The translations under genes and the position numbers were made by a program. DNA of 20,736 nucleotides from a virus. Positions 1,466-5,904 of this stretch are shown here, one piece after another. Every line of letters starts with the position of its first letter. Position 1 is the first letter of the stretch. Location of the stretch: positions 1-20,736 of IMG/VR virus record IMGVR_UViG_3300048586_000333; one strand, given 5' to 3'. Below the pieces are notes generated by a model. The model saw nothing but the letters and a program-made list of their open reading frames with translations. It did not search any database and was not told the origin of the DNA.

Positions 1466-2383
1466 TCAGCGCGCTTCGTCGCCCATGAACTTGTCGAACG
1501 TGTCGAGTGTGGGCTCTTCCTCGAGCTCGGCCATCGCCCACCGCGATGGCGCGCGGTCGGGATAGAGCAGCAGCGAAATCGACATCTCGTTGCCGGGCGA
1601 GAACACGGTCATTTCACGCACCGGCTCGGAACCGGCCCAGACACCTGCCGGGTGGTGATGGCCGTGACGGCCCGTATCCCAGTCCACCTCCTGCGCGGCC
1701 AGAGAAGCCCGCGGCAACTCGGTCACGACCTGCCGTGCACGATAGAACACGCCGGATTTCAACAGCGGTTCGCTGGACCAGGCCCAATCGATGAAGCCTT
1801 CCTTGCCGAACACGATCATGGCGCGCTTGTCGGTGATGGTCATCCACTTCAGGATCGCCGCTGTCAGGGACACGGCATAGCGGTCCGACAACTCGGTCAT
1901 CACGTCGATGTCGATTACCCGTCCCTTGATCTGGGCGCGGAAATCGTCCAGCGGCATCAGCAAGTAGGAGGCGAAGGTATTGGCCTCACCTTCGATCTTG
2001 TTCCGCGCCTCATCCCAATCAGCCATGTTGCGGTTGGTGCATTTGAGGCCGCCGGGATGGGCGCGTCTGTGGAGCAAATAATGGCCCAGCTCATGCGCCA
2101 GCGTGAAGTTGCGCCGCCCCGGGGACCGGATGGTCTCATTGTAGATGATGCCCCATTCGCCTGATCCGCCCGGACGCGGCATCAACATGCCTTCGACGCC
2201 TTTGGAGAGATTCAGCCCCCCGACCATCGTGATCGGTGCGTCCGGAAAGACCTGCTGCGAGAAGTCCTTCGCCAGTGCCGCCACGTCGATGGGGAAGCGC
2301 GGGAGCCCGTGCACAGCCTGATGCACGGACAAGATCTTCGTCAGGCGGTTGGCCCAACTTTGAGGCGTGGTCGGCAGGCTCAA
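1466..2383 (-). CDS. ImmA/IrrE family metallo-endopeptidase
   Basis: A 305-aa protein with the zinc-peptidase signature LAHELGHYLLH (His97, Glu98, His101) and the downstream EGEANTFASYLLMP segment that supplies the third metal ligand. Both are typical of the ImmA/IrrE (DUF955) family. Family members cleave XRE-type repressors, for example ImmR of ICEBs1 and DdrO in Deinococcus, often after DNA damage. The gene is encoded directly after an XRE repressor gene and overlaps its stop by four bases (TTGA), so the start is a TTG used by translational coupling. An AAGAAGG stretch lies just before it. The C-terminal third (from about residue 200) is extra relative to minimal ImmA proteins and its role is not evident. 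Likely role: inactivating the neighbouring repressor. Confidence 0.85.
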   Translation of the reverse strand: MSLPTTPQSWANRLTKILSVHQAVHGLPRFPIDVAALAKDFSQQVFPDAPITMVGGLNLSKGVEGMLMPRPGGSGEWGIIYNETIRSPGRRNFTLAHELGHYLLHRRAHPGGLKCTNRNMADWDEARNKIEGEANTFASYLLMPLDDFRAQIKGRVIDIDVMTELSDRYAVSLTAAILKWMTITDKRAMIVFGKEGFIDWAWSSEPLLKSGVFYRARQVVTELPRASLAAQEVDWDTGRHGHHHPAGVWAGSEPVREMTVFSPGNEMSISLLLYPDRAPSRWAMAELEEEPTLDTFDKFMGDEAR

Positions 2384-2700
2384 TCCTTCTTACCCCACAT
2401 GTCGATCATCTGGTTGATCTTCTGTTGGTCCTCGGGGGCCAGCTTGCTGAATTTCCGGAAGAAGGCATCCTTCAGAACCTGGTCACTGGGCTCCTCGCTC
2501 TCGTCGAGCAGGTAATCGGTCGTGACCTCGAGGGCTTGGGCTATGCGGGTCAGCTTTTCTCCAGACGGTTTTCTGGTGTCTCGGTTCTCCAGTTCCCAGA
2601 TGTAGCTCTTGCTCGAGTCGGTCAGCTCGGCGAGCTTGTCGAGGGAGTATCCCTTTTCCTGGCGGTGGCGCTTGATCTTCGCGCCGAGGGACGTGGTCAT
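2380..2700 (-). CDS. XRE family transcriptional repressor
   Basis: A 106-aa protein with a lambda-repressor/Cro-type helix-turn-helix over about residues 5-62; the turn and recognition helix are around LDKLAELTDSSKSYIWELE. A short acidic and charged C-terminal tail follows. The ATG at 2700 is preferred over longer in-frame extensions because AAGGA lies 7-9 bases upstream and the HTH begins almost at once. It is the first gene of a pair with the ImmA-type protease, matching ImmR/ImmA-like switch pairs of mobile elements. It faces a divergent promoter region with two palindromes that are its probable operators (inference). Confidence 0.88.
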   Translation of the reverse strand: MTTSLGAKIKRHRQEKGYSLDKLAELTDSSKSYIWELENRDTRKPSGEKLTRIAQALEVTTDYLLDESEEPSDQVLKDAFFRKFSKLAPEDQQKINQMIDMWGKKD

Positions 2701-2860: not shown

Positions 2861-4087
2861 ATGACCGCCATTGCTGCATTCCTCCGCAAGACCCCCGTTA
2901 CCCGTTTGCAGGACTACTTCAATGCCGGCGCTTTCACCTCGCTCGCGCCTGTCGATTGGACCAAGCCCGAGCCGGACGTCGTCGAGCCGCTGATCAAGGC
3001 CGTGGACGGCATGTCCGACGACGAAAAGCAGCGCGTCGTCCTTGATGCCGGCCGTGTCGCGGCTCTCGCTGATGAACCGGGGCAGAACGCCTTGCAGAAC
3101 GTCGTGCAAAACCGCGCTGTGTTCGACGCGCTGGAGGGGGCCAACAATCGCTCGCTGTGGGTTTTTTTGAAGGAGCCTGATCGTTTCCGTCTCGCGGAAG
3201 AGGTGCGCTACAACGACGAACGTCGCCGGACGCGGTCCTGGAGCGGGTTTGGCGTCGATGCCGATCTGGAGGTGAAAAAGGACCCGATCTCGCTCGCGGC
3301 GTTTACGGCGGCAATCCGGGCTCGGTTTGAGACGCCCAATGTCCATGTCGACATCTTCGACCGCCACCGGGTGATCCTCGATGGTGAAGAATGCGAACTT
3401 GTTCAGGTCGCGGTCTACCGGGAGGGGCGTCCTGAGGACATGCTGGGCTTCGATGCCAACAGCACCTTGTCACGCCGGATCGTGAAACCTGTCTTCGAAG
3501 CTGCGCTGACCTATGAAGCTGCGACTGGCGTGATCGAAGTTGTGGCTAAGACCCGCGAGGACCGGATCGATCTGACCCGGTTCATGGCGCGCGATCTGCT
3601 CGGGATCACCCTTGGTGAGGACCAGTCGCTGCCGCTGCGCGAATTCGACCTCAGCATGTTGCTGCGGCCGTTCGACTTCCCGACCGACCCTGCCGACGGG
3701 ATTGCCAGCGTGACAGTCAAGGAACTGCGTCTGATGGATCTCGGCGACGCAAAGGAGCGCATCACGCTTGAATCCATGTCCGGCGCCGACCGTACGATCT
3801 GGCAGATGGCGGAACACCGTATCGGACTGGACATCGGGGGCGGTGCCCATGTGTTCGGTCGCGCAGGTGACGTGCCGGAATGGGTGATTACCCGCGCACG
3901 CTTCACCATCAAGTTCCATCCGGGCCCCTCCGGCGGTCGTGGCAAGTCGCTGGCCCTCAACGTCACGATGCCGCACGGCTGCAATCTGAAGGACATGACG
4001 GCGCAAGAGCGCCTGATCGGCGAGAAGTATCTGCGCCTCTGGGGCATCCTGAAAGACGACAATGACGAAGGCGACGTCCTTGAGTAA
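2861..4087 (+). CDS. Unknown 408-aa protein (cargo block, first gene)
   Basis: I do not recognise a family. The protein is soluble, with no signal peptide or membrane segment. The N-terminal 130 residues are mostly helical (MTAIAAFLRKTPVTRLQDYF; repeated acidic and alanine stretches). The middle and C-terminal parts (about 150-400) look beta-rich with charged turns, e.g. VHVDIFDRHRVILDGEECELV, then GLDIGGGAHVFG near residue 325. AAAGGG lies 7-10 bases before the ATG. It is the first gene downstream of the operator-controlled rightward promoter and overlaps the next gene by 26 bases, so the two products probably act together. A run of seven T (3170-3176) interrupts otherwise GC-rich sequence without breaking the frame. 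The position beside an XRE-ImmA pair in a phage lysogeny region allows a host-benefit or phage-defence role, but nothing in the sequence proves it. Confidence 0.8.
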   Translation: MTAIAAFLRKTPVTRLQDYFNAGAFTSLAPVDWTKPEPDVVEPLIKAVDGMSDDEKQRVVLDAGRVAALADEPGQNALQNVVQNRAVFDALEGANNRSLWVFLKEPDRFRLAEEVRYNDERRRTRSWSGFGVDADLEVKKDPISLAAFTAAIRARFETPNVHVDIFDRHRVILDGEECELVQVAVYREGRPEDMLGFDANSTLSRRIVKPVFEAALTYEAATGVIEVVAKTREDRIDLTRFMARDLLGITLGEDQSLPLREFDLSMLLRPFDFPTDPADGIASVTVKELRLMDLGDAKERITLESMSGADRTIWQMAEHRIGLDIGGGAHVFGRAGDVPEWVITRARFTIKFHPGPSGGRGKSLALNVTMPHGCNLKDMTAQERLIGEKYLRLWGILKDDNDEGDVLE

Positions 4088-5009
4088 GCGGGCGATCGAC
4101 CTCCTGCTGCGGGCCATGGAAGCCCGCAGCACGTCTCTCCAGGCATCGGCGCTGCATCAGGTCTCGCGCGGTGCGACCGACGCATTGCTCGCAGCGAAGC
4201 TTCTGGTGCCGAGCGGGCATGTCCCAGTTGTTGCCAGGATGGACGATTACGAGGATGAACCGGTCGAGGCCACCTGGTCGGCCGAGCTGAAATCATACGG
4301 CTATCACGACAGCACGGGCCGCTGGATCAGCGTTGAAAATCGAGACATCGCGGTTTGCATGGTCGACTACGGTCTGGCCCTCGCCAAGATGCTGGTGGCG
4401 TTCGACCGTGCCGGGCCTTCACGCCCGACGCCCTTGATCTCTGATCTCGTATGGGACGTGGGAACCATCAAGTTCGCCGGAGCGAAGGCCCCAGTGCCCG
4501 TCTGGTTTGCCCGCCGGCTTGGGGATCCGGGGGGCTGGGCGCAACTCGAGGCGCTGATTGGGCGCAAACCGCCGCCGGAAATCCGCATTATCCTGACTTC
4601 CACGCCCGGTGAGCGCATCCCGGAGATCGCCCAGAAGCGCAACCACATCATCAATGTGGCGGATGTTGCGGGTGATCCGGCCAAGCTCGCAATCTCGCCG
4701 CAGGTCCTCGGTGCGCGGGTGTTCCCCGGTCAAGTCCAGCATCGTTTCCCGATCGATCATTCGGAAGATTGCGGACTCGTCTGGCATGGTGACGAGACTC
4801 TCATCTTCGGTGGCGACAAACAGCGGCTACTTCTCCAGCTCCTGTTTGCCGCCTACTGGTCCGGATCACCGGTTCTGCGGGTGGCAGCAGTGCTGGAAGA
4901 GGCAGGCTATGGTGGACAGGTGAACTCGCTCAAGAAAGCCTTCGGCCGGCGCAAGGATTGGCAGACCTTCATCAAGTTCGACGACGGAAATTGCTGGATC
5001 GAGCCCTGA
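4062..5009 (+). CDS. Unknown 315-aa protein with possible C-terminal winged helix
   Basis: It starts inside the end of the 408-aa gene (26-base overlap), indicating coupled expression; a TTG at 4080 is an alternative start. The N-terminus (about 1-50) is helical and may be a small HTH-like fold (RAIDLLLRAMEARS ... ATDALLAAKLLVPSG). The middle is of unknown fold. The last 65 residues (KQRLLLQLLFAAYW, then LRVAAVLEEAGYGGQVNSLK, then FIKFDDGNCWIEP) have the helix-helix-recognition helix-wing pattern of OmpR-like winged-helix domains. This is a visual judgement only. No catalytic motif is evident. It could be a DNA-binding partner or sensor for the 408-aa protein. Confidence 0.78.
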   Translation: MTKATSLSKRAIDLLLRAMEARSTSLQASALHQVSRGATDALLAAKLLVPSGHVPVVARMDDYEDEPVEATWSAELKSYGYHDSTGRWISVENRDIAVCMVDYGLALAKMLVAFDRAGPSRPTPLISDLVWDVGTIKFAGAKAPVPVWFARRLGDPGGWAQLEALIGRKPPPEIRIILTSTPGERIPEIAQKRNHIINVADVAGDPAKLAISPQVLGARVFPGQVQHRFPIDHSEDCGLVWHGDETLIFGGDKQRLLLQLLFAAYWSGSPVLRVAAVLEEAGYGGQVNSLKKAFGRRKDWQTFIKFDDGNCWIEP

Positions 5010-5043: not shown

Positions 5044-5072
5044 TTGAAACGAGAATGCGCCGCCTCTATGTT
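5044..5072 (+). promoter_or_regulatory. Sigma-70-type promoter upstream of structured leader
   Basis: TTGAAA (5044-5049; five of six consensus bases) and TATGTT (5067-5072; four of six) are separated by exactly 17 bases. Transcription would begin near 5079, at the base of the first RNA hairpin. This gives the 183-aa gene its own promoter rather than read-through from the 408/315-aa pair. Confidence 0.55.
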
Positions 5073-5078
5073 TGACGG

Positions 5079-5190
5079 GACGGTCGGGCTGCTAAGCCCG
5101 GGGTCATGCGTGAATGCCGGAAGGCTGCAGCGCTGCAGGGGAACCTGCGAAGAGCGGTGGCGCGAGCCATCAGAAACAGTTCTAATGGAA
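5079..5190 (+). ncRNA. Structured RNA: leader of the 183-aa gene or small RNA
   Basis: Between the predicted transcription start and the next ribosome-binding site the sequence folds into consecutive hairpins. CGGGCT/AGCCCG (5084-5101) makes a 6-bp stem with a tiny loop. CTGCAGCGCTGCAG (5125-5138) is a perfect 14-base palindrome. GCAGG-GGAA-CCTGC (about 5135-5148) has a GNRA tetraloop, and GGTGGC-GCGA-GCCATC (5157-5172) has another. Two GNRA-capped stems plus alternative pairings of the CTGCAG element are unlikely in plain spacer DNA. No known riboswitch or tRNA consensus fits. It could be a cis-acting leader or a trans-acting RNA. Confidence 0.4.
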
Positions 5191-5201
5191 AGGATACGAT
5201 C

Positions 5202-5753
5202 ATGCCCATGCATGACACCCCGAAATATTCTCCTCACCTTCACTGCATCTACGATGAGCCCGCTCCGACTGGGCACATCGGGCGCGGCACGCACTATTCC
5301 GTAGTCCAGGCGTTGTCTTGGCGTACAGAAACGGGAGAGTTGCGCCAACAAGCTGCTGTCCAGAACGTTGCGATCATCTGGGATGAAGACCACGATGATC
5401 GGATTATTCCCTGTGTGGAGGCGCTGCTCATGGCTGGCCTTTTGCACGCAGTTTCCATGATCGGCGAGCGGAAAGGCGGCGTGACCATCGTGTTCAACTC
5501 GATGTCTGCTGCCCGTCTCAGCGACAACCAGAAGCGCGCCTACCGGGAAGAGGTTACTCGGGTCATCAATGATGTGGTCGCCGCCAAGCACGAGGATTCC
5601 TGGTCGATTACCTTTGGCGAGATGACCGACACGCCTTCCTTGCGTTCGACAGGGCATGACATTTTTCATCAGTCCCTTATTCAAGACGGCGATGTGCAAA
5701 AGATCGAGACCTATGTCCGGAACATCAACTACCTCTGGGATATCGACGGGTAA
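5202..5753 (+). CDS. Unknown 183-aa protein
   Basis: I cannot assign a family. The ATG at 5202 has AAAGGA eight bases upstream, and earlier in-frame codons fall inside the structured leader. The protein has a histidine-rich N-terminus (MPMHDTPKYSPHLHCIY), an acidic segment IIWDEDHDDRIIPCVEAL (about residues 66-83), a hydrophobic helix LLMAGLLHAV, and GERKGGVTIVFNS. It is soluble and probably alpha/beta. It is followed by a strong intrinsic terminator, so with the promoter and structured RNA upstream it forms a self-contained transcription unit. The clustered D/E/H residues could bind metal, but no known catalytic motif is apparent. Confidence 0.75.
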   Translation: MPMHDTPKYSPHLHCIYDEPAPTGHIGRGTHYSVVQALSWRTETGELRQQAAVQNVAIIWDEDHDDRIIPCVEALLMAGLLHAVSMIGERKGGVTIVFNSMSAARLSDNQKRAYREEVTRVINDVVAAKHEDSWSITFGEMTDTPSLRSTGHDIFHQSLIQDGDVQKIETYVRNINYLWDIDG

Positions 5754-5842
5754 TCTGTCCGTTACAGAAAGCACGCGTCCAAGAAGGTCCTGGCACTGAG
5801 CCACTTCTGGAGGTGACGCCGAGCCGGCATGATCGTTGAAAG

Positions 5843-5869
5843 AGGCCGTCCTTTGGGGCGGCCTTTTTT
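5843..5869 (+). terminator. Intrinsic terminator after the 183-aa gene
   Basis: The stem AGGCCGTCC/GGGCGGCCT (nine pairs including one G-T wobble) with a TTTG loop is followed by a run of six T. It separates the lysogeny/cargo block from the replication block. Confidence 0.85.
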
Positions 5870-5904
5870 GATTTCGGCGCGAAGATCTTTCCGAACTCCC
5901 AGTT

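Follow-up and report, generated by a model that had tools for sequence, protein, structure and literature searches.

The locus considered here raises the question of what is encoded by bases 5044-5201 of a viral DNA, an interval that separates the gene for a 315-aa protein from the gene for a 183-aa protein: does it specify a structured RNA, and if so, does that RNA act on the gene behind it, and what reads it? The initial annotation had taken the interval for a regulatory leader or a small RNA. We analysed the window (the whole stretch of DNA, a 20.7 kb IMG/VR virus record) together with homologue loci, which carry L-numbers (L003 etc.). The features of the window are collected in Table 1.

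Table 1. Features of the window, with strand and basis of assignment
Feature	Position	Strand	Evidence or remark
capP and capH homologues	1466-2700	-	PADLOC E 2e-70 and 3e-32
Overlapping two-gene operon, 408-aa (phrog_37634) and 315-aa proteins	2861-5009	+	faces capP/capH
Candidate promoter TTGAAA-17-TATGTT	5044-5072	+	9/12 match; -35 and spacing kept in L003, L004, L006, L013
First helix (GAC/GUC and UCGGGCU/AGCCCGG)	5079-5105	+	4/10 pairs compensated
Hairpin HI: GCGU/GCGC outer stem, internal loop, GCC-GGAA-GGC tip	5108-5133	+	fold and homologue alignment; tip in L013 is CGAAA
Hairpin HII, GCAGG-GGAA-CCUGC	5135-5148	+	invariant in window clade; nearly identical in L007
Alternative helix, AGAGC (5151-5155) with GUUCU (5179-5183)	5151-5183	+	consensus fold; excludes anti-Shine-Dalgarno pairing
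Extra hairpin GGUGGC-GCGA-GCCAUC	5156-5171	+	homologue tips GCGA, GCAA, GUGA, UUGA
HIII: anti-Shine-Dalgarno UUCU (5180-5183) with AGGA (5191-5194)	5180-5194	+	fold; pair probability 0.18
Shine-Dalgarno GGAAAGGA	5187-5194	+	sequence
Start-codon hairpin UCAUGC-CCAU-GCAUGA	5200-5215	+	stem kept in window clade; loops CCAU, CUGC, CUCA, UUCA
Gene for 183-aa protein, undescribed family	5202-5753	+	motifs GRGTHYS, WDEDHDxR, GERK, YxxNIxxLW
Intrinsic terminator of the unit	5836-5871	+	-24.2 kcal/mol, z -4.1, U6 run

The transcription unit

The well-spaced promoter claimed in the initial annotation exists as a site, and its position and the TTGAAA are retained in L003, L004, L006 and L013, with a weak -10 (TACNTY); L005 has TTGCTG at the -35 position. 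The match alone, however, is at chance level, as the promoter scan gives an expectation of 0.8 such sites in 3 kb. The ribosome-binding site ahead of the ATG at 5202 and the strong terminator behind the gene were both as described (Table 1). A simple scan found no terminator-like site on the + strand of the leader, i.e. between the RNA and the gene, although the same scan also missed the real terminator at 5836-5871; in the window sequence no U run lies downstream of any leader hairpin.

The possibility that the leader is itself coding, as part of a longer open reading frame from 5106, was rejected because this frame contains stops in L004, L005, L006, L010, L012 and L013. With the gene frame closed by stops in six homologues, the conservation of the leader is left without a coding explanation. 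In the Vibrio plasmid homologue L027 the annotated start lies inside the hairpin leader (2932-3001), so that the leader has been annotated as coding; the true start there is probably the ATG at 3001.

The protein family and its genomic context

Searches with the 183-aa protein gave no family match of weight in Pfam, PHROGs, NCBIfam, PADLOC (a defence library) or PDB. One member had a PADLOC match, which was weak and absent in ten members scanned singly, and was discarded. The predicted fold of the window protein (pLDDT 84.8) gave no Foldseek match at E < 0.001. The best structural match (VIA) of model m511154f3e4f6 was the uncharacterised integron cassette protein Hfx_cass1 (3fuy), a weak match (Z 5.8, rmsd 7.0, 111 aligned) that lies below the level of kinship. 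A KH-like likeness, to parts of S3 and a Jag-type protein, was likewise weak and at the level of common arrangements, and kinship with DUF3800 was rejected at an hhalign probability of 0.8%. Depending on which alignment is used, 15 to 28 positions never vary within the family, those of the four motifs in Table 1 among them. The charged residues at such positions, acidic and basic, suggest an enzyme. All members are acidic, with pI values of 4.7-6.0 and net charges of -3 to -14.

Proteins 84-98% identical to that of the window occur in five alphaproteobacterial genomes (Pararhodobacter, Defluviimonas, Marimonas, Ciceribacter and Paracoccus). Further homologues are found in viral contigs and on 94 plasmids, the latter at about 31-38% identity (Klebsiella, Escherichia, Enterobacter, Vibrio, Cupriavidus, Paraburkholderia, Rhizobium and others). 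The family therefore spans alpha-, beta- and gammaproteobacteria, with members standing singly in prophages, plasmids and a Vibrio array, and the gene is rare and patchy: it was present in 2 of 198 genomes of the bacterial family of the L003 host (Defluviimonas) and in 2 of 398 of its phylum. A strongly diverged relative, similar mainly in the WDEDHDxR region, lies at L016:4914-5291 with two GAAA hairpins ahead of it, which suggests that there may be a wider superfamily.

The gene usually stands alone. In L044 and L053 it is flanked by tail genes that run in the opposite direction; in L014, L015, L043 and L052 it follows an integrase gene; the plasmid copy L017 lies near a SIR2-family gene, and the Vibrio copy L027 beside the resistance genes of an integron-like stretch; in the window it follows the operon that is divergent from capH and capP. 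Such surroundings fit a moron or a defence gene, a role that we regard as putative. Two observations on the neighbouring DNA stand apart from this. The 408-aa/315-aa operon is probably an uncharacterised DNA-damage-controlled defence operon of this prophage. In L043, a DUF3800-VII RNA (Rfam; 2279-2365, - strand) overlaps, in antisense, the end of a DUF3800-like gene (1446-2288, + strand), and its immediate neighbour is a member of the present family; two RNA-linked mobile genes are adjacent here.

Hairpins in the window leader

Bases 5074-5201 were predicted by RNAfold to fold at -49.6 kcal/mol, compared with -41.7 +/- 3.3 kcal/mol for shuffles (z -2.40), and the antisense strand of the same leader gave a z of -1.59. 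From the single sequence, the leader fold is only modestly better than chance, and this value is what can be said for the view that a GC-rich intergenic stretch simply happens to fold well. The hairpins and GNRA tips of the initial annotation are present, with GGAA at 5140-5143 and GCGA at 5162-5165, and there is a third GNRA tip, GGAA at 5119-5122, within HI. In the extra hairpin 98% of cells are paired, with one-sided changes only. The start-codon hairpin has a fold z of only -0.5, and codon constraint could also account for its stem.

A 14-base palindrome, CTGCAGCGCTGCAG, is present at 5125-5138 as had been reported, but the alternative pairings that it was thought to offer found no support: base 5134, a T in the window, is G or A in every homologue, and the palindrome is therefore private to the window sequence and was rejected as a switch. 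A different alternative pairing, AGAGC/GUUCU versus UUCU/AGGA, is conserved and has support. A long-range pairing of 5100-5112 with 5207-5219 (13-nt arms, 85% complementary), which could clamp the leader onto codons 2-6, was also rejected because 5107 is changed to C in L005, L006 and L011 without compensation. No tandem or direct sequence repeats were found in the leader.

Comparison with known RNA families, which had been proposed as a check, matched neither the window nor the leaders of its relatives to any Rfam family. With the Rfam 15 covariance models nothing in the window rose above the gathering threshold and the best permissive matches were at chance level; matches to c4-a1b1 and isrK were dismissed, being on the opposite strand at E 0.8-2.5. 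The relatives' leaders gave no Rfam family match either; the families compared included riboswitches, thermometers, abiF, DUF3800 and C4. We noted what we take to be a resemblance between HII, with its GGAA tip (5135-5149, GCAGGGGAACCUGCG), and helix 45 of 16S rRNA, whose GGAA tip is methylated by KsgA/RsmA; this likeness gave no match in the genomes searched.

Capped hairpins precede the gene throughout the family

We examined the leaders of 36 members, scoring the last 120 nt before the start codon for hairpins with GNRA or [C/U]GAAA tips. At least one such capped hairpin was found in 33 of the 36, and the strict test gave none in L008, L039 and L054. The 36 leaders together contain 60 capped hairpins, compared with 2.8 +/- 1.6 in dinucleotide shuffles (maximum 9 in 500 shuffles), counts that are not blind, as the tip classes were chosen after viewing the leaders, and that do not represent 36 independent cases, as several of the leaders come from close relatives. 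The upstream 120 nt of 241 control ORFs averaged 0.033 capped hairpins. Tips were borne by 43 of 67 hairpins in the leaders, by 3/212 in coding sequence, 3/45 downstream, 2/67 further upstream and 1/46 in antisense; the antisense count indicates that the feature belongs to the sense-strand RNA and not to the DNA. Despite the non-blind tip classes, the size of the effect leaves little room for chance. Nearly all of the distant homologues have two or three such short hairpins upstream; their ends lie about 45, 25 and 8 nt from the start codon, with a spacing of ~20 nt.

The leader is also tied to the gene. When the pattern CGAAA...CUCYCGAAAGGAG was searched for across 2.9 million viral contigs, the upstream stem was present only before this gene. 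The window-type leader occurs only before genes of the 183-aa type in the viral contigs and genomes searched, and no leader without the gene was found by model R1 in 293 genomes. Within the window clade the intergenic region can be aligned from the promoter through the ATG, and conservation is not confined to the protein: L005 (Ciceribacter) has both leader and gene in common with the window clade despite having different upstream genes, which indicates that the leader travels with the gene.

Covariation and covariance models

Compensatory changes were found at two levels. In the window clade, 4/10 pairs of the first helix have changed with compensation (C-G/U-A, G-C/A-U and U-A/A-U), while the remaining helices are nearly invariant and so speak neither for nor against pairing. 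In the wider family, an alignment made from sequence only recovered the inner stem of HI, with double changes in 4/4 of its pairs. When the arms of HI were anchored on the CGAAA loop alone, pairing was 88-96% at the first three positions, compared with 49-60% when the arms were shuffled; the peak of 96% compares with 49% (maximum 77%) for shuffled arms, and many pair types contribute.

When a covariance model built from 8 leaders (R2) was run on 219 kb, its best-scoring matches were the leaders of 11 other members, each at the correct place and on the correct strand, and the second-round model (R3) added L017, L048, L008 and L022, with L039 weakly. A scan with R3 for leaders lacking the gene was empty but carries no weight, as it detected no positive control. 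In the R2-based alignment 18/19 pairs have double changes (60 cells, compared with 18 +/- 4 in shuffles), a count that leans towards structure because the alignment was fitted to the model. Covariation and a leader conserved beyond the protein thus bear out the initial reading of a regulatory leader or small RNA. The alignments indicate that the stems change with compensation whereas the loops are fixed. Evidence for more structure than expected by chance is weak from the single sequence and overwhelming when judged from the homologues. The covariation, the counts of capped hairpins and the covariance-model searches refute the view that the stretch folds well by chance, and we give it next to no credence.

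The window leader is predicted to be a divergent version of the family-wide [C/U]GAAA leader. Models R2 and R3 gave no match to it even with filters off; its position, its GNRA tips and two intermediates make common descent with the wider family likely, though not proven. HI of L013 (71% identical protein) contains GC-CGAAA-GC in place of the window's GCC-GGAA-GGC. In L007 (34-37% identical protein), a CGAAA-containing HI goes together with an HII, GGGGAACC, that almost matches that of the window. The first helix (5079-5105) and the hairpin at 5156-5171 are extras of the window clade.

Control of translation and the reader of the tips

About half of the members have a last hairpin that extends into the Shine-Dalgarno, and such overlap is possible in the window. 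In L022, L047, L049, L053 and L055 a third hairpin, CUCYCGAAAGGAG (or a version with UGAAA), has the Shine-Dalgarno as its 3' arm; its counterpart in the window is UUCU (5180-5183) with AGGA (5191-5194). Together with the lack of a terminator between RNA and gene in the simple scan, this placement of the Shine-Dalgarno leads us to favour a leader acting in cis over an independent RNA, although the sequence does not separate the two. A conserved, covarying structure linked to one gene family, as the alignments suggest here, is what would be expected of an autogenously controlled leader.

We tentatively prefer the reading that the locus is a self-contained, single-gene mobile unit, in which a promoter and a structured 5' leader control translation of the downstream gene and the tips are read most likely by its own protein. 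The unit would comprise promoter, leader, gene and terminator. Its leader is a series of short hairpins that share one kind of tip, GNRA or, in most relatives, [C/U]GAAA, and the last of them can hide the Shine-Dalgarno; the fixed tips would be contact points for a protein. Most likely the product of the gene itself would bind them and, by holding the leader closed, restrict how much of it is made. For the window, pairing of GUUCU with AGAGC would correspond to the open state and pairing of UUCU with AGGA to the closed state, and the start codon could also be held in UCAUGC-CCAU-GCAUGA. The neighbours of the protein hint at a phage-related accessory role.

Recognition by a protein is suggested by the fixed tips on free stems. 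The encoded protein is the leading candidate because, in the viral contigs and genomes searched, the leader is found only before this gene, and, as the hosts span alpha-, beta- and gammaproteobacteria, it is the only partner common to all leaders, universal host factors aside. Several observations count against this preferred reading. The hairpins end ahead of a free Shine-Dalgarno in L017, L020, L038, L039, L048 and L051, so masking is not the whole story. In the predicted ensemble of 5079-5201 the closed pairing is a minority form (about 0.18, compared with about 0.5 for AGAGC/GUUCU), and both values drop when the gene start is included. The failure of R2 and R3 to recognise the window leader, and the three members without a strict capped hairpin, also weigh on this side. 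The acidity of the family is unusual for an RNA-binding repressor, and the predicted fold has no known RNA-binding match.

Hairpins near a Shine-Dalgarno are common, and both the start and the Shine-Dalgarno can be masked here, as they could be in a leader whose hairpins do no more than stabilise the mRNA or determine the basal level of translation, or in an RNA thermometer, with no dedicated reader. Such a passive leader does not explain fixed tips with variable stems, leaves the regular series of two or three hairpins unexplained and finds no Rfam thermometer match; we consider it decidedly improbable.

The acidity of the protein would fit better with a reader supplied by the host or by a phage. 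On the host side this might be a ribosomal protein or one that modifies RNA; on the phage side, a protein by which the leader is opened upon infection. GNRA tips often serve as contact points, and the presumed resemblance of HII in the window clade to 16S helix 45, for which the searched genomes gave no match, also points this way. As cited in PMC12373285, the abiD1 5' UTR is opened by a phage protein, which provides a precedent. The hairpins of the other members, however, are unlike helix 45, and the hosts are very diverse, yet the association is with one protein family only, which makes an outside reader unlikely.

A further explanation, and the main rival, is that the co-transcribed leader holds the protein in an inactive state by binding it, or else acts as its cofactor, in a type III-like manner as in ToxIN, AvcID or AbiF/RCd22, and that loss of the short-lived RNA during infection would free the protein. 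The architecture is the same: in prophages, plasmids and arrays, one accessory gene has a structured RNA immediately upstream; the leader holds several copies of one hairpin type, and the protein has enzyme-like invariant residues. In the published precedents the RNA antitoxin inhibits its protein directly, as shown for AvcI (PMC10511110), which likewise has no predicted terminator before its gene, and for RCd22 of AbiF (PMC12373285). Against this stand the lack of tandem or direct repeats, the lack of a terminator-like site between leader and gene in the simple scan, and the position of the Shine-Dalgarno, which in roughly half of the members lies within the last hairpin and argues for control in cis; there is also no evidence of toxicity. 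We rate this role of the leader as an RNA partner as somewhat unlikely.

Significance and comparison with known systems

The locus carries a new RNA element on an undescribed protein family, in an arrangement of a known kind. None of the libraries searched describes either the RNA or the protein family, and the two evolve together on mobile DNA in three classes of proteobacteria. It is possible, though we put it forward with some doubt, that they form a ribonucleoprotein-type mobile system, in which the activity or synthesis of an undescribed, probably enzymatic protein would be governed by tandem GNRA/[C/U]GAAA hairpins in its own mRNA; prophages, plasmids and integrons would spread the system one unit at a time, and its role would probably lie in conflict with phages. 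The strict rule that tips are fixed and stems free makes direct predictions for a simple binding or reporter experiment, and because plasmids of Klebsiella and E. coli carry members, common laboratory strains are suitable for testing leader and gene. Such work could reveal a new RNA-binding fold or else a new accessory system under RNA control, possibly one directed against phages.

Type III toxin-antitoxin systems of the ToxIN/CptIN/TenpIN kind differ from the present unit in that its leader has no tandem sequence repeats, in that no intrinsic terminator was found between its RNA and gene (by the simple scan, which missed the real one at 5836-5871), and in that its protein matches no known type III toxin family in Pfam, PADLOC, NCBIfam or PHROG. 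AvcI-AvcD is similar in that its structured RNA immediately precedes a lone mobile accessory gene and no terminator is predicted between the two (PMC10511110); however, AvcD is a dC deaminase, a family that the 183-aa protein does not match, and the present leader overlaps the Shine-Dalgarno in many members. The resemblance to AbiF/Abi_2 and RCd22 (the abiF RNA motif) lies in an RNA with recurring motifs ahead of a prophage gene (PMC12373285), whereas the present leader has no Rfam match and the protein no Abi_2 match. DUF3800 RNAs and proteins also combine structured RNAs with an uncharacterised mobile gene, and one adjoins a family member in L043, but the present leaders are without an Rfam match and the protein profiles are unrelated by hhalign (probability 0.8%).

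Phage coat-protein operators and boxB are short protein-binding hairpins with a fixed tip and a free stem, located near the ribosome-binding site in the coat-protein case. The present protein family is unrelated to theirs and acidic, and binding is here only proposed; like them, the hairpins of the leader are short, with the tip fixed and the stem free.
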